Source: Paracoccus chinensis (lineage in GTDB: Bacteria > Pseudomonadota > Alphaproteobacteria > Rhodobacterales > Rhodobacteraceae). Taken from it: a DNA stretch of 64,000 nucleotides. The translations under genes and the position numbers were made by a program. This document shows positions 12,600 to 44,860 of the stretch, piece after piece. Every line of letters starts with the position of its first letter. Position 1 is the first letter of the stretch. The stretch covers positions 1-64,000 of the forward strand of contig NZ_FNGE01000008.1 of NCBI RefSeq assembly GCF_900102885.1, given 5' to 3'. The notes beneath the pieces were generated by a model. The model was not told the origin of the DNA, did not search any database, and saw nothing but the letters and a program-made list of their open reading frames with translations.

Positions 12600-13153
12600 A
12601 CCTGCACCTCGTAATAACCCAAGGCCGGGCCGATCTCGGCTTCCTCATAGTGGAAATGCGAGCGCACGGCGCGGTCCAGCGCCGCGAAGCCCTGCGCGCA
12701 GGCCTCGAACCGCGCGGGCGCCGGGTCCAGCGCAAGCTCGTCCGCCGCCTGGGCCAGCACCTCGATCAGGTGCTCGAGACCACGATGCTCCTGACGCAGC
12801 CGGGCCAGGACGGCGTTCAGGCCCTCGTTCCCCTGCACCTCGAGCTGCGGATAAAGGTGGAAATCCTCGATCTGATGGTGCGTCGTGATCGCCTGGCAGG
12901 AGGCCCCGCAGGCCGTGCCGAACAGCCGCAGGTTCTGCGCCATCGGCATCCCGCGCACGGCGGGCGCAAGCTCGCCCGGCTGTCTCAACCCCGCGCGGAT
13001 GTCGCCCATCAGGGCGCCCACGGCGGACAGGTCGCGCAGGTACCAGCGGTGGATGGCCGCCAGTCCGCGCCCGTTCAGCTCCTGGAACGGCGACAGGGTG
13101 AAGGCGGGCGCCCGGGGGCGCGCTGCCTCGTCCTCGATCTCCTCGGGGGTCAT
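12596..13153 (-). CDS. Hemerythrin-domain protein
   Basis: This 185-residue cytoplasmic protein has a hemerythrin HHE four-helix bundle. Likely iron ligands are in ITTHHQIEDFHLYPQL (His, His, Glu, His), RQEHRGLEHLIEV and SHFHYEEAEIGP. Such domains bind a di-iron centre and sense or buffer oxygen, nitric oxide or iron. About 45 N-terminal residues precede the bundle. The ATG overlaps the stop of the upstream permease gene by 4 bases (ATGA), so it is translated as the last gene of the ABC importer operon. That is an unusual partner; no link between the two functions is known to me. Confidence 0.9.
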   Translation of the reverse strand: MTPEEIEDEAARPRAPAFTLSPFQELNGRGLAAIHRWYLRDLSAVGALMGDIRAGLRQPGELAPAVRGMPMAQNLRLFGTACGASCQAITTHHQIEDFHLYPQLEVQGNEGLNAVLARLRQEHRGLEHLIEVLAQAADELALDPAPARFEACAQGFAALDRAVRSHFHYEEAEIGPALGYYEVQV

Positions 13154-14121
13154 GCCGGGGTCAGGCCGCGCAGCCGTTCGCCCCGGCGACGCAGCAGTTC
13201 CACGGTGGCCAGCAGCGCGATCGAGAAGATCACCAGCAGCGTGGCGACGGCGAGGATGGCGGGGCTGATCTGCTCGCGGATGCCGTTCCACATCTGGCGC
13301 GGGATGGTCTGCTGATCGGGGCCTGCGATGAACAGGGCCGCCACCACCTCGTCGAAGGAGGTGACAAAGGCGAACAGCGCGCCCGAAATCACACCCGGCA
13401 GGATCAGCGGCATTGTGACCTTGAAGAAGGTCGTGCGCGGGTTCGCCCCCAGCGAGGCCGCCGCCCGGTTCAGCGACTGGTCGAAGCCGATCAGCGTCGC
13501 CGTCACCGTGATGATGACGAAGGGGATCCCCAGCGTCGCATGGGCCAGGATCACGCCCAGGTAGGTGTTCGCCAGGCAGCCCGAGTTCGACAGAACCGGC
13601 GCCAGCAGCCGTCCGAAGGTCGAGGTCGTGTCCACGCAGGCCGAGGAATAGAAGAAGAACATCCCCGTCGCCGTGATGATGATCGGCACGATCATGGGCG
13701 AGATCAGGATCGCCATGATGATCCGGCGGAACGGCATTTCCGGTCGTGACAGCCCCAGCGCCGCCAGCGTGCCCAGCACCGTCGCCAGGATCGTCGAGAA
13801 GATGCCGATGATGATCGAGTTCTTGGCCGCGCCGATCCAGCGCGCATTGTTCCAGGCATCCGCCCACCAGCTGCCGGTGCGGGGCGCGTCGGGGTTCGCC
13901 ATGCCGAAGGTCAGCAGCGTGTCGTACCAGCGCAGCGAATAGCCCTCGGGGTCGAAGGAGCGCATCTTCTCGGTAAAGGTGAAATAGGGCTCGGCGTTGA
14001 AGCTGAGCGGGATCACCACCACGATCGGCGCGATCAGGAAGAAGAAGATCGCCACGCAGATCGCGATATAGGCCCAGTGCCAGATCCGCTCCAGCGGCGA
14101 GGCGTAGGTCGGCAGCGCCAT
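13150..14121 (-). CDS. ABC transporter permease, PotC-like (polyamine/opine type)
   Basis: This 323-residue inner-membrane permease has six hydrophobic segments and the cytoplasmic EAA loop, seen as AAASLGANPRTTFFKVTMPL followed by ILPGV. A long periplasmic loop near residues 50-95 follows the first TM helix. The family (PotC of the spermidine/putrescine class) pairs with a PotB-like partner, here the gene just upstream with a 4-bp gap. Together with the ATPase and binding proteins upstream it forms one importer. It ends overlapping the hemerythrin start. The substrate cannot be named from sequence alone. Confidence 0.93.
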   Translation of the reverse strand: MALPTYASPLERIWHWAYIAICVAIFFFLIAPIVVVIPLSFNAEPYFTFTEKMRSFDPEGYSLRWYDTLLTFGMANPDAPRTGSWWADAWNNARWIGAAKNSIIIGIFSTILATVLGTLAALGLSRPEMPFRRIIMAILISPMIVPIIITATGMFFFYSSACVDTTSTFGRLLAPVLSNSGCLANTYLGVILAHATLGIPFVIITVTATLIGFDQSLNRAAASLGANPRTTFFKVTMPLILPGVISGALFAFVTSFDEVVAALFIAGPDQQTIPRQMWNGIREQISPAILAVATLLVIFSIALLATVELLRRRGERLRGLTPA

Positions 14122-14125
14122 TCGG

Positions 14126-15421
14126 TCACCCCAGCTTGAGATTGTCGATCCCGACCAGCCGGTCGTAGATCCAGTAAAGGACAAGGACGCTCGCCAGCAG
14201 GATCGCGGCCAGGGCGGCGGCCATGGACCAGTTCAGCGTCTCGGTCATGTGCATGGCGATCATGTTGGAAATCAGCTGCCCCGACGAGCCGCCGACCAGC
14301 GCCGGCGTGATGTAGTAACCGACCGCCAGGATGAAGACGAGCAGCGCCCCTGCCCCAAGCCCCGGCAGCGTCTGCGGGAAGTAGACGCGGCGGAAGGCGG
14401 TCCAGCTGGACGCGCCGAGGCTGCGGGCCGCGCGCACATAGCTGGGATTGATCGTCCGCATCACCGAATAAAGCGGCAGGATCATGAAGGGCAGCAGGAT
14501 ATGCGTCATGGCGATGATCGTGCCGACCTGGTTGTAGATCAGCTTCAGCCGCCCGTCCTGCCCGACCACGCCAAGCCAGACCAGGATGTCGTTCACCACC
14601 CCCTGCTGCTGCAACAGGACCATCCAGGCGGTCGTGCGCACCAGAAGCGAGGTCCAGAAGGGCAGCAGCACCAGGATCATCAGCAGGTTCGACTTGCGCA
14701 TCGGCAGGGTCGCCAGCAGATGCGCGATGGGGAAGCCCAGCAGGAAGGTCAGCCCGGTGATCACCAGCGACAGCCAGAAGGTGCGCTGGAACAGCATCAC
14801 ATAGACCTGCTGCCGCTCGGGCACCTGCACGATGCTGTTCTGGTCGTCCCGCGTGCGGTCCACGGCGGCCAGGTAGAAGTTCGCCGTGTAGGCGGTCGAG
14901 GCCGAACGCATCGCGCGCCACAGCGTCGGGTCACCCCAGTCCTCGTCGGCCTCGATCAGCGCCTCGCGGAAGGGCGGCTCGAACCCTGCGCGCGCCTTGC
15001 GGCCGGTCGAGGTGAACAGCGACCGCGTGCCCGGCACGTCATAGTTCATCCGGGTGCCAACGATGCCGATGGTGCGGATGTCGGCCGCGGTCTTCAGGTC
15101 TGCGGCCAGCGCGGCAAAGGCGGCCTCGTCCGGCTGGGTGCCGGACGGGTTCTCGGCGAACCAGGCCGAGATCTGCGGCATGTTGGCCGCGAAACCGTCG
15201 TTGTAGATCGAGCGGTGCAGCATCTGCCCGATCGGGATCACGAAGGTGACGACCACGAACAGCAGAAGCGGGGCCACCAGCAGGAAGGCCCGCCTGCGCG
15301 CCCGCGCCGAAGCGCGGGCCAGCGCGCGGGCAAGCGGCTGCCCGTCGGCGGTGGTCAGCCGCGGGCTCGCGCCGGAGGCTCCGGCAACCACGGCGGCATG
15401 GGGATCGAGAGCACTGGCCAT
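14126..15421 (-). CDS. ABC transporter permease, PotB-like, with large periplasmic insert
   Basis: This 431-residue permease is longer than a standard PotB (about 280). After the first TM helix near residue 50 (FLLVAPLLLFVVVTFVIPIG) there is a soluble insert of about 150 residues, presumed periplasmic, before the remaining helices from about residue 205. This layout is seen in the opine/mannopine-type branch of PotB-like permeases. The EAA loop reads AARSLGASSWTAFRRVYFPQ. A basic, Ala/Arg-rich cytoplasmic N-terminus precedes TM1. The gene sits 38 bp after binding protein 1 and 4 bp before its PotC-like partner. Confidence 0.93.
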   Translation of the reverse strand: MASALDPHAAVVAGASGASPRLTTADGQPLARALARASARARRRAFLLVAPLLLFVVVTFVIPIGQMLHRSIYNDGFAANMPQISAWFAENPSGTQPDEAAFAALAADLKTAADIRTIGIVGTRMNYDVPGTRSLFTSTGRKARAGFEPPFREALIEADEDWGDPTLWRAMRSASTAYTANFYLAAVDRTRDDQNSIVQVPERQQVYVMLFQRTFWLSLVITGLTFLLGFPIAHLLATLPMRKSNLLMILVLLPFWTSLLVRTTAWMVLLQQQGVVNDILVWLGVVGQDGRLKLIYNQVGTIIAMTHILLPFMILPLYSVMRTINPSYVRAARSLGASSWTAFRRVYFPQTLPGLGAGALLVFILAVGYYITPALVGGSSGQLISNMIAMHMTETLNWSMAAALAAILLASVLVLYWIYDRLVGIDNLKLG

Positions 15422-15459
15422 GTCGGTCCTTTGGTCGTTGCGGCCTTGGGGGCCGTCTG

Positions 15460-16536
15460 TCACTCGCCGCCCAGCCACGCGGTGAAGCGGGCGCGCAGCT
15501 CGGTCTCGTGGTCGGCCCAGAAGGCCGGGTCCACGAACAGGGCATTGGTCATGTTCCGGGCCGCGGTCGGCAGGTGCGGGCCCATCGGGGTCGTGCCGTC
15601 GCCCGCGAAATTGCCGACCATCTCCTGCGCCGAGCGGCGCGGAGGGCCATAGGGCAGGATCTCGGCGGCATCGGCCAGCACCTCGGGCGAGGTCGAGAAG
15701 GCGACGAAGTCCCGCGCCGCATCGTGGTTCGGCGCGCCCTTCGGGATCACCCAGCCCTCGACCTCCATCATCTGCGCGTCCCACAGGATCGCCAGCGGCA
15801 GACCGTCCACCTGAGCGGCCTTGAAGACGCGGCCGTTGTAGGCATGGGTCATCGCGACCTCGCCATCGGCCAGCAGCTGGATCGGCTGGGCACCGGCCTC
15901 CCACCAGACGATCTGTTCGCTGATGCTGTCGAGCTTCGCCAGTGCGCGTTCCACGCCCTCGGGTGTCGCGAGGACGTCATAGACCTGGTCCAGAGGCACG
16001 CCATCTCCGACCAGCGCCAGTTCCATCGTGAACTGGGGCGTGCGGCCGAGGCCGCGGCGGCCGGGGAAGCGTTCGAGATCGAAGAAATCTGCGGCCGAGG
16101 TCGGCGCCTGAGCCACCTTCTCGGTGTCATAGGCGATCACGGTCGAGTAGATGTCGGTCGCGACGAAGCAGTCGGTCAGCGTGTGCGGCAGGAAATCCTG
16201 CGCGACCGCCCCGCCTCCGGGCGGCGGCACGAGGCTTGCCGGGTCGATCGGCAGGGCATCGCCTTCCTCGCACAGGCGCATCCCCGCGCCCTGCCCGACG
16301 CTGGCCAGGTCGGCGGTGACGTTGCCCGCCTCGACCTGCGTCTTGACCATGCCCGCCGGGTCGTCCGTATCGACGAAGCGCACGGGAATCCCGGCCTGTT
16401 CCGAGAACGGCCGCGCCATCGCCTGCTCCTGCATGGCCGCGAAGTCCCCGCCCCATGACAGGATCGTCAGCGGGCCCTGCTGCGCAAGCGCAGGCGTGGC
16501 AAGCAGCGTGGTGGCAAGGGTCAGCGTTCTGCGCAT
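15460..16536 (-). CDS. ABC transporter periplasmic substrate-binding protein, copy 1
   Basis: This 358-residue family 1 (PotD/PotF-like) binding protein starts with a signal peptide ending ATPALAQQ. The first strand reads TILSWGGDFAAMQEQAMARP. Shared family hallmarks are VEAGNVTADLASV, IVWWEAGAQPIQLLADGEVA, VEGWVIPKGAPNHD and the C-terminal FTAWLGGE. It is the third and most divergent of three tandem paralogues, missing short pieces compared with the other two. It lies directly before the permease genes, so it may be the one ancestrally matched to them. Ligand unknown. Confidence 0.93.
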   Translation of the reverse strand: MRRTLTLATTLLATPALAQQGPLTILSWGGDFAAMQEQAMARPFSEQAGIPVRFVDTDDPAGMVKTQVEAGNVTADLASVGQGAGMRLCEEGDALPIDPASLVPPPGGGAVAQDFLPHTLTDCFVATDIYSTVIAYDTEKVAQAPTSAADFFDLERFPGRRGLGRTPQFTMELALVGDGVPLDQVYDVLATPEGVERALAKLDSISEQIVWWEAGAQPIQLLADGEVAMTHAYNGRVFKAAQVDGLPLAILWDAQMMEVEGWVIPKGAPNHDAARDFVAFSTSPEVLADAAEILPYGPPRRSAQEMVGNFAGDGTTPMGPHLPTAARNMTNALFVDPAFWADHETELRARFTAWLGGE

Positions 16537-16556
16537 CGGTCCATCGCATCGAGGTG

Positions 16557-16582
16557 GCCGGGGCGCGGTATGGCGCCCCGGC
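16557..16582 (-). promoter_or_regulatory. Intercistronic hairpin between binding-protein genes 2 and 1
   Basis: A perfect 10-bp stem (gccggggcgc / gcgccccggc) with a 6-base loop lies in the 54-bp gap. No T-run follows, so it is more likely an mRNA-stabilising or RNase-blocking structure than a terminator. Similar elements raise expression of the binding-protein segment over downstream permease segments in other ABC operons. Confidence 0.6.
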
Positions 16583-16590
16583 GCAAGGGG

Positions 16591-17670
16591 TCAGCTTGCC
16601 AGCCAGGCGTTGAAGCGCTCGGTCAGCTCGGTCCCGTGGTCGGCCCAGAAGGCGGCGTCGTTGACCAGCGCCTTTTCCGCATTCTCGGGCGTGGTCGGCA
16701 GGTAGGGTGCCATCTGGGTGGTGCCGTCCTTGTAGGTCCCGACACTCGCCGCCGCCGATTTCCGCGGCGGGCCATAGGCGATGTATTTCGACAGATCCGC
16801 CTGCCGCGCCGGGTCCGAGGCGAAGGCGATGAACTGCATCGACTTCTCGACATCGGGCGCACCCTTGGGAATGACCCAGTAGTCCATGTCGAGGTTCGCG
16901 CCGTCCCAGACGAAGCCGAAGGGCTTGCCCTCGTCCACGATGGCGTCGAAGATCCGGCCGTTATAGGCCAGTGTCATCGACACTTCCTTGTCGGCCAGAA
17001 GCTGCGGCGCCTGCGCACCCGCCTCCCACCAGACCACCTGGTCCTTGATCGTGTCCAGCTTGGCGAACGCGCGCTCCACCCCCTCGTCGGTCGACAGGAC
17101 GTCATAAACCTCGTCAGGGGCCACGCCGTCGCCCAGCAGCGCGAATTCCAGCGCGTATTTCGGGCGCTTGATGATGCCGCGCTTGCCGGGGAACTTGGCG
17201 GTGTCGAAGAAGTCGGCCACCGTCGCAGGCGCGCCGTTCGGGAAGGCCGAGGTGTCATAGGCGATCACCGTCGACCACACCATGATCGCGGTCGCGCAGT
17301 CATGCAGCGCCTGGTCTAGGTAGTCGTCGGCAGCCGGGGTCCCGTCCGCAGCGGCGGGCAGCGCCGCGGGGTCGATCGGCTCGATCAAGCCCTCGTCGCA
17401 CAGGCGGATCACGTCGGACTGCTCGACGTCGTAAACGTCGCTGGTGACGTTGCCGGCCTCGACCTCGGCCTTCAGCTTGGCCGGGGGGTCCGAGTTGTCC
17501 ACCATGTTGGCCTGGATGCCAGTGGCTTCCGTGAACGGCCGGGCATAGGCCTCGTTCACCGCCGCGGCAAAGGCGCCGCCATAGGTGGTGATGTTGATCG
17601 AGTCCTGCGCCTGCGCCGCGCCCGCGGCGATCAGCGCCAGCGCCGTGCCCGCGATCAGTCGTCTTGTCAT
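16591..17670 (-). CDS. ABC transporter periplasmic substrate-binding protein, copy 2
   Basis: This 359-residue PotD-like binding protein has a signal peptide ending AAGAAQAQD. The mature start reads SINITTYGGAFAAAVNEAYA. Hallmarks shared with copies 1 and 3 are VEAGNVTSDVYDV, ADFFDTAKFPGKRG, VVWWEAGAQAPQLLADKEVS, DYWVIPKGAPDVE, YGPPRKSAA and RFNAWLAS. By eye it is closest to copy 3. It probably captures the same class of ligand (polyamine, amino-acid conjugate or opine), with specificity diverged after duplication. It is flanked on both sides by GC-rich intercistronic hairpins. Confidence 0.94.
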   Translation of the reverse strand: MTRRLIAGTALALIAAGAAQAQDSINITTYGGAFAAAVNEAYARPFTEATGIQANMVDNSDPPAKLKAEVEAGNVTSDVYDVEQSDVIRLCDEGLIEPIDPAALPAAADGTPAADDYLDQALHDCATAIMVWSTVIAYDTSAFPNGAPATVADFFDTAKFPGKRGIIKRPKYALEFALLGDGVAPDEVYDVLSTDEGVERAFAKLDTIKDQVVWWEAGAQAPQLLADKEVSMTLAYNGRIFDAIVDEGKPFGFVWDGANLDMDYWVIPKGAPDVEKSMQFIAFASDPARQADLSKYIAYGPPRKSAAASVGTYKDGTTQMAPYLPTTPENAEKALVNDAAFWADHGTELTERFNAWLAS

Positions 17671-17698
17671 GGTTCGCTCTTTCGCAACCTTTGAGAAT

Positions 17699-17726
17699 GG
17701 CGGCGCCGCGCAAGGACGGCGCCGCC
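17699..17726 (-). promoter_or_regulatory. Intercistronic hairpin between binding-protein genes 3 and 2
   Basis: A perfect 9-bp stem (ggcggcgcc / ggcgccgcc) with a 10-base loop occupies the 62-bp gap. No T-run follows on the minus strand. Its placement mirrors the hairpin after copy 2. Confidence 0.6.
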
Positions 17727-17732
17727 GAAACG

Positions 17733-18815
17733 TCAGCCCGCCAGCCAGGCGTTGAAACGCTCGCTCAGCTCGCCGTCATGATCGACCCAGAAGTCGAGGT
17801 TCGAGGCGATGCCCTGCTCGATGTTGCCCGGCGAGGTCGGCAGGTGCGGGCTCATCGGCACGTCCTTGCCCGCGACATTGCCGACCAGCGCGGCCGAGGA
17901 TTTGCGCGGCGGGCCGTAGCTGATGTGCTCGGCGGCCTTGGCAAGCTGCTCGGGGCGGGTCGAGAACTCGATGTATTTCAGCGCGTTTTCCATGTTGGGC
18001 GCGCCCTTGGGGATGACCCAGCCTTCCATCTCGTAGATCTGGCCGTTCCAGATGATGTTGAACGGCTTGTTCTCGCCGATGGCGGCGTTGAAGATCCGGC
18101 CGTTGAAGGCATAGGCCATCGTGACCTCGCCATCCGCCAGAAGCTGAGGCGGCTGGGCACCCGCTTCCCACCAGATCACGTCGTTCTTGATCGTGTCGAG
18201 CTTGGCAAAGGCGCGGTCCACACCCTCGGGCGTCGACAGCACGTCATAGACCTCGGCCGGGGCCACGCCATCGGCCATCAGCGCCAGTTCCAGGTTGAAC
18301 TTGGCGCCCTTGCGCATGGTGCGCTTGCCGGGGAACTTGGCGGTGTCGAAGAAGTCGGCGGGGCTTGCGGGCTTTGCCTCGGGGAACTTGCTGTCGTCAT
18401 AGGCCAGGACCATCGAATAAACGTCGGTCGCCACGAAGCAGTCGGTGATCGCGCCCTCGATGAAGTCATCCGCCGCCGCAGTGCCATCGGCCGCCGCGCT
18501 CAGGACGGAAGGGTCGATCTGCTCAAGCGCGCCCTCGTCGCAGAGCCGCACCGCGTCCGCGTATTCGACCGAGGCCACGTCGGCGGTGACGTTGCCCGCC
18601 TCGACCATTGCCTTGATCGGCGTCGCCGGGTTGTCGGCGTCGGCCACGGTGATGCGGATGCCCGTCTCGGCCTCGAAGGGCGCGTTATAGGCGATGGCAT
18701 GGGACTGGCCGTAGGCCCCGCCCCAGTCCAGCACGTTCAGAACGCCCCCGCTTTGCGCCGAGGCCGCCGTCGCCAGAGCGGCGAATGCAGTCGTGGCGAT
18801 AAGTGGTTTTTTCAT
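17733..18815 (-). CDS. ABC transporter periplasmic substrate-binding protein, copy 3
   Basis: This 360-residue PotD-like binding protein has a signal peptide ending AATAASAQS. The mature start reads LNVLDWGGAYGQSHAIAYNA. It carries the family hallmarks VEAGNVTADVASVE, ADFFDTAKFPGKR, VIWWEAGAQPPQLLADGEVT, EGWVIPKGAPNMEN, YGPPRKSSA and RFNAWLAG. ATG 18815 has the strong ribosome binding site aaagggagg, the best in this operon, and it is the first binding-protein gene after the ATPase. That suggests this copy is made in the greatest amount. Confidence 0.94.
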   Translation of the reverse strand: MKKPLIATTAFAALATAASAQSGGVLNVLDWGGAYGQSHAIAYNAPFEAETGIRITVADADNPATPIKAMVEAGNVTADVASVEYADAVRLCDEGALEQIDPSVLSAAADGTAAADDFIEGAITDCFVATDVYSMVLAYDDSKFPEAKPASPADFFDTAKFPGKRTMRKGAKFNLELALMADGVAPAEVYDVLSTPEGVDRAFAKLDTIKNDVIWWEAGAQPPQLLADGEVTMAYAFNGRIFNAAIGENKPFNIIWNGQIYEMEGWVIPKGAPNMENALKYIEFSTRPEQLAKAAEHISYGPPRKSSAALVGNVAGKDVPMSPHLPTSPGNIEQGIASNLDFWVDHDGELSERFNAWLAG

Positions 18816-18843
18816 TATTTGGCCTCCCTTTGTTGTTGGTTGT

Positions 18844-19983
18844 TCAGACCGGATCGAGCGCCCGCGCATCCTGCGGGTTCCAGCCGATCCTGATGTGCTG
18901 TCCGGGTTCCAGCCGGGTCTGACCCAGCGTGTTGCGGAACTTCATGACGAAGTCGTCGCTGCCCGCGACCTTCATCCGCGCCCGCAGGATGTCGCCCATG
19001 TAGATGACATCGCGCACCTCGGCGTCGATGGTGTGGGTGCCGGTCGGCATCAGGTCGGGCTTGAACTCGACCCGTTCGGGGCGGATTGAGACAAGCGTCT
19101 GCTGCCCCACCTCGCGGATGTTGACGGCGGTGGCGTCGATCAGTTCGCCATTCGCCAGCCGGACCTCGGCGCGGGTGCCGTCCAGCTTCTCGATCCTGCC
19201 GGGCAGCTTGTTGTTTTCGCCGATGAAGCCTGCGACGAAGCTGTTTTCCGGCTTTTCATACAGGACCGCGGGCGGCGCGAGCTGCTGGATGCGCCCGTCG
19301 TTGAAGACGGCGATGCGGTCCGACATGGTGAGCGCCTCGCCCTGGTCATGGGTCACGTAAACGACCGTGATTCCAAGGTTGTCGTGCAACGACTTGATCT
19401 CGTACTGCATGTGCTCGCGCAGCTGCTTGTCCAGCGCGCCCAGCGGCTCGTCCATCAGCACCAGCTGCGGGTTGAAGACCAGCGCGCGGGCCAGCGCGAT
19501 CCGCTGCTGCTGGCCGCCCGAAAGCTGTGCGGGCCGCCGGTTGCGGAAGCGGCCCATCTGCACCATGTCCAGTGCCCGCATGATGCGGGATTCGCGCTCG
19601 GCCTTGCTCATGCCGCGCACTTCAAGCGGGAAGGCCAGGTTCTCGCCCACGGTCATGTGCGGGAACAGCGCATAGTTCTGGAACACCATGCCGATGCCGC
19701 GCTTGTGCGGCGGCACGTCGTTGATGTTGCGCCCGGCCAGCCGGATCTCGCCATGGGTGGCGGTCTCGAAACCCGCCAGCATCATCAGGCAGGTGGTCTT
19801 GCCCGAACCCGAGGGCCCCAGCATCGTCAGGAACTCGCCCTTGCCAATCGAGAGGTTCAGATCCTTCACGACAAGAGTCTGACCATCATAGCTTTTCTGC
19901 ACGTGGTCGAAGACGACGAATCCGTCGTTGCCGGTCGGGGTCAAGGCATCTGCTCCCTGTCTTCCTGTTCTTTGTTGCGTCAC
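18844..19983 (-). CDS. ABC transporter ATP-binding protein, PotA-like
   Basis: This 379-residue ATPase powers the importer. It shows Walker A GPSGSGKTT, Q-loop FQNYALFPHM, signature LSGGQQQRIALARAL, Walker B LVLMDEPLGALD and switch His VYVTHDQGEALTMSD. A C-terminal TOBE domain follows (from about residue 265), as in PotA/MalK. The reading frame opens with GTG at 19983. A TTG at 19944, in phase and preceded by a better ribosome binding site (agggag), is a real alternative start and would remove 13 residues. It is the first gene of the operon; the promoter must lie between 19984 and the tRNA-Leu terminator. Confidence 0.93.
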   Translation of the reverse strand: MTQQRTGRQGADALTPTGNDGFVVFDHVQKSYDGQTLVVKDLNLSIGKGEFLTMLGPSGSGKTTCLMMLAGFETATHGEIRLAGRNINDVPPHKRGIGMVFQNYALFPHMTVGENLAFPLEVRGMSKAERESRIMRALDMVQMGRFRNRRPAQLSGGQQQRIALARALVFNPQLVLMDEPLGALDKQLREHMQYEIKSLHDNLGITVVYVTHDQGEALTMSDRIAVFNDGRIQQLAPPAVLYEKPENSFVAGFIGENNKLPGRIEKLDGTRAEVRLANGELIDATAVNIREVGQQTLVSIRPERVEFKPDLMPTGTHTIDAEVRDVIYMGDILRARMKVAGSDDFVMKFRNTLGQTRLEPGQHIRIGWNPQDARALDPV

Positions 19984-40900: not shown

Positions 40901-41369
40901 GCAGCACGGTCGAGGATTCGCCTGTATGGTCGTCCCCCATTGCCATGACGACACCGCCATGCTTGGACGACCCCGCCATGTTGGCATGACGCATCACGTC
41001 ACCCGTGCGGTCCACGCCGGGTCCCTTGCCGTACCACAGCGCGAAGACGCCGTCATATTTCCCCTCACCGCGCAGCTCGGCCTGCTGGCTGCCCCAGATG
41101 GCGGTCGCGGCCAGGTCTTCGTTCAGGCCGGGCTGGAACAGGACATTGGCGGGATCGAGCAGCTTCTTCGACCGCATCATCTGCAGGTCCACCCCACCAA
41201 GGGGAGAGCCGCGATAGCCCGTCACCAGCCCTGCCGTGTTCAGGCCCGCCGCCCGGTCGCGTGCCGACTGCATCAGCATCAGGCGAACCAGCGCCTGCGT
41301 GCCGTTCAGCAGCACATGGCGCTTGGTCAGGTCGAAGCGATCGGCAAGGGAAATGTCCTGAACGCTCAT
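37956..41369 (-). CDS. Indolepyruvate ferredoxin oxidoreductase, fused single chain
   Basis: This 1137-residue enzyme oxidatively decarboxylates aryl- or 2-oxoacids to acyl-CoA, as in aromatic or branched amino-acid breakdown. It fuses the alpha, beta and gamma parts: N-terminal pyruvate-binding domain (LVTGYRGSPLGGVD), TPP domain (GDGTYNHSG, then ILFNDAVAMTGGQPNEG), Fe-S cysteines (FCSGCPHNSST; EVCEACGDCSVQSNC) and a gamma domain (ITGVGGTGVVTIGAVLA). ATG 41369 has gggaggaag upstream. A frame extension reaching 42431 runs into the LysR gene on the other strand and is not coding. It is divergent from the LysR regulator. Confidence 0.95.
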   Translation of the reverse strand: MSVQDISLADRFDLTKRHVLLNGTQALVRLMLMQSARDRAAGLNTAGLVTGYRGSPLGGVDLQMMRSKKLLDPANVLFQPGLNEDLAATAIWGSQQAELRGEGKYDGVFALWYGKGPGVDRTGDVMRHANMAGSSKHGGVVMAMGDDHTGESSTVLHQSDWAMVDAYIPVLSPAGVQEILDFGLYGWALSRFAGVWTGLKTMKDTVEATSVVDGDPFRMSFVTPDDFVMPEGGLNIRLGDTPVAQEARMIDYKRFAAEAFARANRIDRRMWGKPGAKIGICAAGKNWLDVVHAMSLLGIDETEAERLGITTYKIGQTWPLDMVSFHEWAEGLDLIIVVEEKRKLIEVQVKEAIFDDRRGRRVYGWHKGDTWEHGRRLELFPTRYALDPVLIAQRLGDILIEEGRRTDRLESALGKLAETRRNDNAPEVATRTPWFCSGCPHNSSTKVPEGSRAYAGIGCHYMVQWMDRETTGFTQMGGEGANWIGEAPFSKRPHVFQNLGDGTYNHSGSLAIRAAKAAGTNITYKILFNDAVAMTGGQPNEGELTAPQIVRELQAIDVPVVLVHDEKEEIDRKQFPAGLRFEERANLMAVQRELAEVPGVTAIVYVQTCAAEKRRRRKKGKFPDPDRRVWINPEVCEACGDCSVQSNCVSVVPFDTKLGRKRAIDQSSCNKDYSCVKGFCPSFVSVQGGKLRKPAAEALHLPDLPAPALPAIDGTHNLVITGVGGTGVVTIGAVLAQAAQLDGKGAGMMEMAGLAQKGGAVHIHLRLANDPADISAIRVAVGEADAIIGGDLVVTAGAKTIGLMTGGRTGAVVNEHEIITGEFTRVRDFRVPADRLKMSLEARLGDRVSFLDASKLAERYLGDSIYSNMLITGAAWQQGLIPLSEEAILRAIELNGAKAEENKRAFQIGRWAILYPEQAAPAPAKVERFDSVGYRADRLIGYQGPKLKRRFLKLVDLAPAELRETVAESWYRLLAVKDEYEVARLHLTTTEGVARTFEGDTKLTFHMAPPFLGGKDAEGRPKKREFGAWMLPVFRTLSAMRGLRGTPLDLFGWQGERRRERALARQYEQDMAEVLPKVTPATMDIARELAALPQQIRGYGFIKDEAAEKAQARRDELLAAFRAGGWPSQPEMRIAAE

Positions 41370-41411
41370 CTTGCTTCCTCCCAAAGCTGGACGGCCATGA
41401 GCCACAGTATA

Positions 41412-41428
41412 GGTCAGGTAAGCTGACC
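41412..41428. promoter_or_regulatory. Candidate LysR-type operator
   Basis: A perfect dyad ggtcag-gtaag-ctgacc lies 42 bases upstream of the oxidoreductase ATG in the 132-bp divergent gap with the LysR gene. Its size and place fit a LysR-type recognition element (an interrupted dyad with T-N11-A geometry). Confidence 0.5.
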
Positions 41429-41501
41429 GATAAAGTCCTTTGTTCTTGTCCCGCTTCTCTCTATGTGTTGCGCAAAACGCATGGCAGGGATGCACCAAGG
41501 T

Positions 41502-42407
41502 ATGAACGGGCTGGACTGGGACAAGCTGCGGATATTCCACGCGGTGGCAGAGGCGGGCAGCCTGACCCATGCGGGGGATGCGCTGCACCTGTCGCAGTCG
41601 GCGGTCAGCCGGCAGGTGCGCGCGCTGGAGGAGGGCCTTGGCACCACGCTGTTCCATCGCCATGCGCGCGGCCTGATCCTGACGGAACAGGGCGAGATGC
41701 TGTTCGACGCCACCAAGGCTATGAACCGCAAGCTCGACACCACCGCCGCCCGCATCCGCGACAGCGAGGAGCATGTCTTCGGCGAATTGAAAGTCACGAC
41801 CACGACCGGCTTCGGGACGCTGTGGCTGGTCCCGCGGCTCGCCAAGCTTTACGAGCGCTATCCCGATCTCAAGATCGACCTGCTGTTGGAAGAGCGGGTG
41901 CTGGACCTGCCGATGCGCGAGGCCGACGTCGCCATCCGCATGAAGGAGCCGAGCCAGGCCGACCTGATCCGCCGCCGCCTGCTGAACATCCGGATGCGGC
42001 TTTACGCCTCGCCCGAATATGCAGAGCGCATCGGCCTGCCGCAGAAGGTCGAGGAACTGGCCGCCCATCGCCTGATCTGCCAGAATCCCACAACGCCGCA
42101 GGTGCAGGCGGGCGCGGTCCTGGCGCAGGCGCTGCTGACCCAGCAGTCGCCCTCCACCCTGCTGGTCAACAGCTACTTCGGCGTCCTGCAGGGCGTGCTC
42201 AGCCATGTCGGCATCGGCATTCTGCCCAACTACATGGAACACGAGATGCCGCAGCTTGTCCGCGTGCTGCCGGACGTCGAGTCGACCGAGGTCCCGGTCT
42301 TCCTGGCCTTTCCCGAAGAATTGCGCTCGTCCCGCCGCGTTGCAGCATTCCGGGATTTCGTGCTTGAGGAAATTCAGACGATGAAGCGCAACTCGGACGA
42401 GAACTGA
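41502..42407 (+). CDS. LysR-family transcriptional regulator (LsrB/VtlR-like)
   Basis: This 301-residue regulator has a winged helix at residues 5-65 (DWDKLRIFHAVAEAGSLTHA, then LHLSQSAVSRQVRALEE and HARGLILTEQGE) and an effector-binding domain with the usual two-lobed fold. The N-terminal wording is very close to what I recall for the LsrB/VtlR group of Rhizobiales, which controls cell-surface functions and AbcR small RNAs. ATG 41502 is chosen for alignment with that group; 41481 and 41490 are in-phase alternatives. It is divergent from the oxidoreductase gene. A candidate sRNA follows about 100 bases after its stop. Confidence 0.9.
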   Translation: MNGLDWDKLRIFHAVAEAGSLTHAGDALHLSQSAVSRQVRALEEGLGTTLFHRHARGLILTEQGEMLFDATKAMNRKLDTTAARIRDSEEHVFGELKVTTTTGFGTLWLVPRLAKLYERYPDLKIDLLLEERVLDLPMREADVAIRMKEPSQADLIRRRLLNIRMRLYASPEYAERIGLPQKVEELAAHRLICQNPTTPQVQAGAVLAQALLTQQSPSTLLVNSYFGVLQGVLSHVGIGILPNYMEHEMPQLVRVLPDVESTEVPVFLAFPEELRSSRRVAAFRDFVLEEIQTMKRNSDEN

Positions 42408-42476
42408 GTTATTGCCTTCTACCAGTGCCATGCATGGTCCGCATGGCGGTCATGCATCAATAAAGTTAAGGCGCGC

Positions 42477-42505
42477 TTGAACTGCAAGCGAGGCGCCGCT
42501 TATTT
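42477..42505 (+). promoter_or_regulatory. Possible promoter of the candidate sRNA
   Basis: TTGAAC (42477-42482) and TTATTT (42500-42505) are separated by 17 bases. The -35 match is fair (TTGA), the -10 is weak. The predicted start, around 42511-42513, agrees with the first base of a compact three-hairpin RNA. Confidence 0.35.
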
Positions 42506-42510
42506 GGGCA

Positions 42511-42590
42511 TTGAAGGAACACGAGGAGACTCGCGTTGCTTCAACCTCCCTGTTGGACTTGGGCCGGGCCTTTGTGCCCGGCTTTTTTTT
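42511..42590 (+). ncRNA. Candidate AbcR-like trans-acting small RNA
   Basis: About 80 bases between the LysR gene and purL fold into three successive hairpins. The first is cgag-gaga-ctcg (42522-42533, extendable). The second is ttcaac-ctccct-gttgga (42540-42557), whose loop CUCCCU would pair with Shine-Dalgarno sequences. The third is an intrinsic terminator with eight T residues. AbcR RNAs of Rhizobiales lie beside lsrB/vtlR, expose CUCCC-type loops and silence ABC-transporter binding-protein mRNAs. Location next to an LsrB-like gene makes the comparison attractive, but homology is inference. Confidence 0.45.
42563..42590 (+). terminator. Rho-independent terminator of the LysR/sRNA region
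   Basis: A perfect 7-bp stem (gccgggc / gcccggc) with a 6-base loop is followed by eight T residues (42583-42590). It is the strongest intrinsic terminator signal on the plus strand. Confidence 0.85.
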
Positions 42591-42676
42591 GCTGCATCGC
42601 AGCGCCGTCCTTCATCTTTCCCTTCCGCGCGGCTGGCCCTAGAAGGCTGGCAACCGCACCAAGGGGGACCCTCGCC

Positions 42677-44860
<2,184 letters not shown>

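Follow-up and report, generated by a model that had tools for sequence, protein, structure and literature searches.

Described small RNAs of this type

AbcR small RNAs and their activator, LsrB/VtlR, have a role in the symbiosis and host interaction of Rhizobiales, and SorY and SorX have been investigated apart from that work, as photooxidative-stress RNAs. AbcR represses ABC-transporter mRNAs through anti-Shine-Dalgarno motifs (PMC8844928, PMC5461406), the motif pair being CUCCCA and GUUCCC (PMC5461406). The LsrB/VtlR box of Rhizobiales reads GCAT-N3-TG-N3-T (PMC7486931, PMC8844928).

For Rhodobacter sphaeroides 2.4.1, the published 5′ ends are 1,632,642 for SorY and 2,598,224 for SorX. SorY has its own transcription start site, whereas the SorX end is made by RNase E cleavage within the 3′ UTR of an OmpR-like gene (PMC6238624). 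SorY has been seen on Northern blots (PMC7866481). Its target is takP, for a malate transporter, and that of SorX is a spermidine transporter subunit (PMC6238624, PMC8307010). PMC8307010 places SorY transcription under the alternative sigma factors RpoE, RpoHI, and RpoHII, and not under a LysR. In the literature searched, we found neither a placement of SorY within an LsrB/AbcR-like module nor a modern paper treating AbcR together with SorY or SorX; the primary SorY/SorX papers may mention a LysR neighbor. PMC11089165 names SorY, LysR, and sRNA only in its references, and nothing on the subject was found in papers on the sRNAs of Paracoccus denitrificans and Caulobacter.

The RNA between LysR and purL

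The window is the whole stretch of Paracoccus chinensis DNA analyzed here, 64,000 nt in length. Its gap between the stop of a LysR gene (42407) and the start of purL (42677) is the site of a structured RNA of about 79 nt (Table 1). The RNA folds at −35.6 kcal/mol, against a shuffle mean of −22.8 (z −4.3), and none of 200 dinucleotide shuffles does as well. The first-pass annotation had described a compact three-hairpin RNA whose central hairpin exposes CUCCCU and which ends in a strong terminator. The structured RNA and the terminator stand, with two hairpins rather than three: the supposed central hairpin has just two pairs, in the single-sequence fold and the alignment fold alike, and CUCCC is instead a mostly unpaired linker between the two hairpins (unpaired probability in 57 RNAs, median 0.74, minimum 0.42). 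The CUCCCU stretch is kept in all 57 aligned Rhodobacteraceae loci, whereas its conservation as a hairpin finds no support in either fold.

Folding predicts that the 5′ hairpin closes in 35 of the 57 loci. The alignment of this part is too variable to score covariation, RNAalifold giving no pairs there across the 57 loci, so that conservation of the hairpin rests on single folds. In the terminator stem, one pair is changed on both sides, from GC to AU, in 22 of 57 loci.

Table 1. Coordinates of the features discussed, in window positions.
Feature	Position	Strand	Evidence
LsrB/VtlR-type LysR regulator gene	41502..42407	+	Pfam LysR domains; start chosen by homology
LsrB-box-like dyad GCATGGCGGTCATGC, about −71 to −57	42441..42455	+	18.4 bits, Rhizobiaceae AbcR1-promoter matrix
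−35 element CTTGAA	42476..42481	+	aligned CTTG element in 57 loci
−10 element CTTATTT	42499..42505	+	lines up with the R. sphaeroides SorY element CCTAAAT, which ends 7 nt ahead of the published start (PMC6238624)
SorY-type small RNA, ~79 nt, predicted	42512..42590	+	SorY at 47.5 bits and SorX at 42.6 bits in Rfam, both under cut-off; model R1 68.4 bits, the window sequence being itself among the 57 used to build R1
5′ hairpin TTGAAG...CTTCAA	42511..42544	+	fold; sequence varies among species
Invariant core ACCUCCCUGUUGGACU, anti-Shine-Dalgarno seed	42544..42559	+	identical in 57/57 aligned loci
Intrinsic terminator	42561..42590	+	terminator prediction, strong
Polyamine-type ABC operon	13150-19983	-	ATPase of the PotA family, three adjacent paralogous binding proteins, PotB-/PotC-like permeases
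Candidate target site AGGGAGG ahead of PotD-like gene 17733-18815	18823..18829	-	7-nt core match, duplex −18.6 kcal/mol

Conservation and identity of the RNA

The family sample comprises 199 Rhodobacteraceae genomes, about one per genus. In 197 of them, and in 36 of 37 genus genomes (own included), a single protein matches the LysR at E 1e-70. Fifty-nine family loci were gathered (L010-L039 and L040-L068; 31 from the genus and 28 from other genera). In 57 of these, the RNA lies behind LysR, its core beginning 97-300 nt past the LysR stop. The two exceptions are L057 and L066 (the contig of L066 is cut), and their genomes (G089 and G250) have a match to the RNA model elsewhere. The core, ACCTCCCTGTTGGACT, is identical in all 57 loci, an identity that is partly built in, as the loci were chosen by presence of this 16-mer; an independent, less strict search with CTCCCTGTT recovers the same core in 30 of 30 genus loci. 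The anti-Shine-Dalgarno, CUCCC-type core of the first-pass annotation is thus present and, across the 57 aligned loci, invariant.

The covariance model made from the 57 LysR-linked loci, R1, matches at E 1e-5 in 187 of the 199 family genomes, one to four times apiece, and 12 are without a match. Among the 150 matches listed, 125 are placeable and 25 are not; 118 of the 125, all from different genomes, follow the LysR match on its own strand, 92-837 nt beyond its end, and 7 lie elsewhere.

An all-Rfam search of 42300-42800 finds SorX (E 4.5e-9; cut-off 46.6) and SorY (E 1.6e-8), and the window RNA does not reach the curated SorY score of 111 bits. One family genome of 199, G106, does so (115 bits, at C4:1632645). 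It follows that this cut-off marks near-identity to R. sphaeroides, and the ortholog label used here for the window RNA is one of synteny and core, not of Rfam membership. R1, made without G106, picks the same SorY place in that genome (71.7 bits, E 2.5e-14), and SorX is found there at 88.8 bits from C4:2598225. Since both positions are within 1-3 nt of the published ends, we take G106 to be R. sphaeroides 2.4.1. Its gene order is LysR, SorY, PurL-like frame, the same as the LysR-sRNA-purL order of the window. As in SorY, the window has the core ACCUCCCUGUUGGACUU followed by a terminator. The SorX trait, an origin in the 3′ UTR of an OmpR-type gene, is not found in the window RNA; an OmpR-linked candidate sits elsewhere in the genome.

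Judged by SorY lying at the R1 site of G106, by the LysR-SorY-PurL order common to both genomes, and by the separate SorX candidate behind an OmpR-type gene, the gap RNA is a real small regulatory RNA and the Paracoccus counterpart (ortholog) of R. sphaeroides SorY. The Paracoccus ortholog is new; the sRNA SorY itself is already known.

The SorX candidate of the same genome occupies L003 1501-1577 (G000:C45:254542-254618), behind a response regulator of OmpR type. It has CCUCCCUCCCUGUCUCACUGG plus a terminator and scores 29.5 bits, less than the cut-off.

The LysR neighbor

In a one-way search of this genome with LsrB of Agrobacterium tumefaciens B6, the window LysR comes first (E 2.5e-74, 43% identity) and the next LysR at 2.2e-36, in keeping with the LsrB/VtlR-like neighbor named earlier. 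Class-wide, one LysR match at E 1e-70 is found in 154 of 289 genomes. In a LysR tree, 32 LsrB-locus proteins stand apart, with weak support (60/81), from five of six own-genome paralogs; the sixth, on a long branch, falls inside. Upstream of LysR, a thioredoxin-reductase (trxB) motif is found in all 78 Rhizobiaceae loci scored and in 93 of the 105 other alphaproteobacterial loci, but in none of the 59 from Rhodobacteraceae; the trxB-vtlR order has been termed well conserved in the class (PMC7486931). The window LysR is probably an LsrB/VtlR ortholog, given that it is the best match, that genomes have just one strong match each, and that the intermediates share the trxB-LysR-sRNA locus.

In A. 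tumefaciens LsrB, the cysteine pair C144/C273 forms a disulfide (PMC11975290). The aligned positions of the window LysR hold V and A (a numbering offset of two is assumed). Thus its signal is probably not that disulfide, and sensing must differ. The same source compares chosen species including R. sphaeroides and states LsrB to be unique to Rhizobiales (PMC11975290), which conflicts with the class-wide LysR series beside trxB.

Promoter and operator-like dyad

A CTTG element and a TA-rich −10, the latter in most loci and read off the alignment, precede the RNA at near-constant spacing in the 57 loci, and the −35/−10 pair proposed by the first-pass annotation, CTTGAA and CTTATTT, aligns with them. 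The small RNA is conserved together with its own promoter elements. A simple sigma-70 scan of 41300-43500 found no promoter. In G106, the −10 element CCTAAAT ends 7 nt ahead of the published SorY start; by this distance, the start in the window is predicted near 42512, where 42511 had been given earlier.

Upstream of the promoter lies a dyad of GCAT-N7-ATGC-like form, which is also found at −71 to −57 in G106. Its resemblance to the Rhizobiales box was gauged against 80 named Rhizobiaceae LsrB loci. The ar15 RNA lies behind LsrB in 9 of 9 Rhizobiaceae loci scanned. A recognizable motif is present in 79 of the 80, and in 66 of these the strict box precedes the first AbcR. A matrix of 18 distinct Rhizobiaceae AbcR1-promoter boxes, with no Rhodobacteraceae sequence included, scores at least 8 bits in 51 of the 57 Rhodobacteraceae promoters versus 5% of shuffles, and its best site is 20-21 nt before the CTTG of the −35 element in 53 of 57. 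At locus L058, the commonest Rhizobiaceae box (19/66) is present letter for letter. The strict box GCAT-N3-TG-N3-T does not occur in the gap (2 in the window vs 6.45 expected); the window dyad reads GG where the strict box has TG. A box scan of 70 other alphaproteobacterial loci gave mixed scores and positions, and no box is claimed there. One strict VtlR-box match, at 41481-41493 on the minus strand, is just before the LysR start and is a candidate for autoregulation; such matches are not above chance in the window.

RNA identity, synteny, and the conservation of promoter, dyad, and core are thus in hand. How the RNA is controlled can be read in more than one way. The SorY ortholog might be under an RpoH-type or housekeeping sigma factor only, with LysR and dyad having no part. 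SorY is under RpoE/RpoHI/RpoHII in R. sphaeroides (PMC8307010), and CTTGAA-N16-CCTATAT is of the S. meliloti RpoH1 type, used by the LsrB-independent AbcR2 promoter (PMC8844928). Yet the best dyad, by a matrix from another order, is at one spacing in 53 of 57 promoters, and the LysR-RNA linkage holds in 118 of the 125 placeable listed matches, each in a different genome. We regard control by a sigma factor only as unlikely, while giving it appreciable weight.

The RNA could also be a processed 3′ UTR of the LysR mRNA, not a primary transcript, comparable to SorX from its OmpR-type gene (PMC6238624). It is on the same strand as LysR and at the distances from the LysR stop given above. What makes such an origin improbable is the combination of promoter elements and dyad, held at near-constant spacing across the 57 loci, and the own start site of SorY in R. 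sphaeroides (PMC6238624). The preferred reading, a SorY ortholog activated by LysR, is taken up below.

AbcR and the two-motif RNA of other alphaproteobacteria

The first-pass annotation proposed an AbcR-like RNA. A true AbcR (ar15) RNA outside Rhizobiales would explain the same locus behind LsrB, the similar operator, and the same type of seed. However, the all-Rfam search gives no ar15/AbcR row over 42300-42800 at E up to 10. Members of one clan that overlap are masked in this output, but the best from the ar15 clan there, suhB/mmgR, is at just 19.2 bits versus the ar15 cut-off of 40. R1 has no match at E 0.01 in the 80 Rhizobiaceae loci (best 0.78). Of the AbcR motif pair, M1 CUCCCA belongs to hairpin 1 and M2 GUUCCC to the linker (PMC5461406); the pair is missing here, and the window RNA has a single linker core. 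AbcR membership is rejected on these three grounds, that is, covariance match, motif pair, and R1, and a true AbcR RNA at this locus is very improbable. An ar15 scan of the 289 class genomes gave no match either, but is uninformative on absence: its controls were silent too, and Rhizobiaceae loci carry ar15.

CcsR/cuckoo-type RNAs, which carry CCUCCUCCC loops (PMC3927594), were also considered and set aside, their core and neighborhood differing from those of the window RNA.

That only the transcription terminator of the LysR gene is present, with no separate RNA, deserves almost no credence: the strong terminator at the RNA end fits, but an invariant 16-nt core and conserved promoter elements stand ahead of it, and Northern blots detect SorY in R. 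sphaeroides (PMC7866481).

Outside the family, 105 loci were examined, the better-scoring of 149 non-family genomes with a LysR match. In 70 of these, CCTCCCTG, CTCCCTGTT, or CTCCCAGACG is found at most 1 kb behind LysR; 35 are without, some of them on cut contigs. The typical form is ACGUCUCCCAGACGUGAAGCCUCCCUGUU plus a terminator (55 distinct sequences), which we call the two-motif RNA. The 24-mer TCTCCCAGACGTNAAGCCTCCCTG is present in 73 of 289 class genomes, its reversed control in 0. Its 84 hits comprise 54 less than 1 kb and 11 between 1 and 10 kb behind LysR, 11 elsewhere, and 8 in genomes without a listed LysR. In two Rfam scans, of 16 and 8 loci, no sRNA family scored above its cut-off for the two-motif RNA. 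R1 at E <0.01 matches 43 of the 105 non-family loci (41/98 and 2/7) and 0 of 80 Rhizobiaceae loci. It follows that the two-motif RNA is a sequence relative of SorY at a common locus, whereas AbcR shares only locus, operator type, and architecture. Common descent of AbcR with the two is a hypothesis.

Several loci depart from the usual number of copies. L090, L099, and L110 have two or three CUCCC-motif RNAs (by motif) behind LsrB, and L259, of Ferirhizobium litorale, has four ar15 copies there. G436, a 1.8 Mb genome, has four copies of the two-motif 24-mer (L274 and three other places) and is without a listed LysR match. At L103 2812-2901, a long GC-rich inverted repeat draws several microRNA models below cut-off; it is a palindrome, not a microRNA.

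Candidate targets

An ABC operon with three binding-protein genes, which the first-pass annotation considered natural targets, does exist in the window. By the curated cut-offs, its ATPase qualifies as PotA; the first binding protein resembles PotD at a score far under the threshold, and the permeases resemble PotB and PotC, also under threshold. The remaining two binding proteins have no NCBIfam match at 1e-10 and are 55% and 52% identical to the first. As a target, the PotD-like gene is plausible. AGGGAGG occurs once in the window, versus 1.33 expected; as this is not above chance, support for the target comes from relatives only.

The PotD-like leaders compared come from 30 genus genomes, the best among 41 and with the own genome among them; the species are related and the counts are not independent. 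A core-complementary run of at least 7 nt is found in 11 of the 30, versus 2 of 30 LysR leaders and 2 of 28 next-gene leaders, and 19 PotD-like leaders have no run of 7 or more. The runs sometimes pair with other parts of the core (CCAACAGG, GTCCAAC). Three of the 30 leaders lack a start codon at their beginning; without them, the count is 10 of 27, and this set was used for duplex energies. The 27 PotD-like leaders have a median duplex energy of −15.6, reached by 0 of 400 shuffled cores (shuffles preserve base counts, not neighbors). The 26 next-gene leaders have a median of −12.4, reached by 11 of 400. As next-gene leaders also beat most shuffled cores, the signal is in part a general complementarity to ribosome sites. 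These comparisons lend moderate support to the PotD-like gene as a putative target of the SorY-type RNA, weaker in distant relatives.

A search of the own genome for ACAGGGAGG-N3-10-ATG gave two matches, one being the opposite strand of the SorX candidate and the other at C47:139353.

Proposed mechanism and wider reading

We propose that the GCAT-N7-ATGC dyad, at 57-71 nt ahead of the RNA start, is most likely the binding site of LysR, which from there would activate transcription of the SorY-type RNA. The RNA would expose ACCUCCCUGUUGGACU between the 5′ hairpin and the terminator. This segment is predicted to pair, probably with Hfq, with the purine-rich ribosome binding sites of solute-transporter mRNAs, and the pairing would lower uptake, as do SorY/SorX in R. 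sphaeroides and AbcR in rhizobia. Transcription in Paracoccus, LysR binding, the role of Hfq, and target repression are what we infer from the comparison. Taken as a whole, a SorY ortholog that is activated by LysR and blocks the ribosome sites of transporter mRNAs through an exposed CUCCC core is the likely reading of the locus.

A broader view is that LsrB/VtlR with a linked anti-Shine-Dalgarno sRNA constitutes one ancestral alphaproteobacterial switch, of which SorY, the two-motif RNA, and AbcR are descendants or replacements, the locus and operator being kept while the RNA was rewritten. We give this view an even chance. If true, LsrB would occur beyond Rhizobiales, and SorY would serve nutrient uptake under LsrB control. 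Locus and operator would link SorY to AbcR, predicting an activator for SorY and a shared logic running from LysR through sRNA to transporter. The loci would also offer a natural series for the study of sRNA rewriting under a persistent regulator and position, and they point to a widespread two-motif RNA that has no Rfam match above cut-off in the scanned loci.

Comparison with known systems

AbcR1/AbcR2 of Rhizobiaceae (ar15, RF02345) share with the window RNA the place behind LsrB/VtlR, the CUCCC seed, and transporter targets, the last being predicted here (PMC8844928, PMC5461406). They differ in having no detectable sequence similarity to it and in carrying two anti-Shine-Dalgarno motifs, often in tandem copies. 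An LsrB box lies upstream of AbcR1/AbcR2, whereas the window dyad is a look-alike by matrix score, with the strict pattern missing. The S. meliloti LsrB box is at −61 to −49 (PMC8844928), so that the window dyad is about one helical turn further out.

The two-motif RNA of other alphaproteobacteria has the same locus behind LsrB, the CCUCCCUGUU core, and the terminator, but an additional small hairpin with a CUCCCA loop.

The 3′ UTR of an OmpR-like gene is the source of SorX in R. sphaeroides (RF02784; PMC6238624), whereas the window RNA lies behind LysR; the two RNAs have the CCUCCCUGUUGGA core and a terminator in common. From SorY of R. sphaeroides (RF02651), the window RNA differs in the sequence of its 5′ hairpin and in an Rfam score far under the cut-off. 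The two are the same in LysR-sRNA-purL order, core, terminator, promoter elements, and dyad position.
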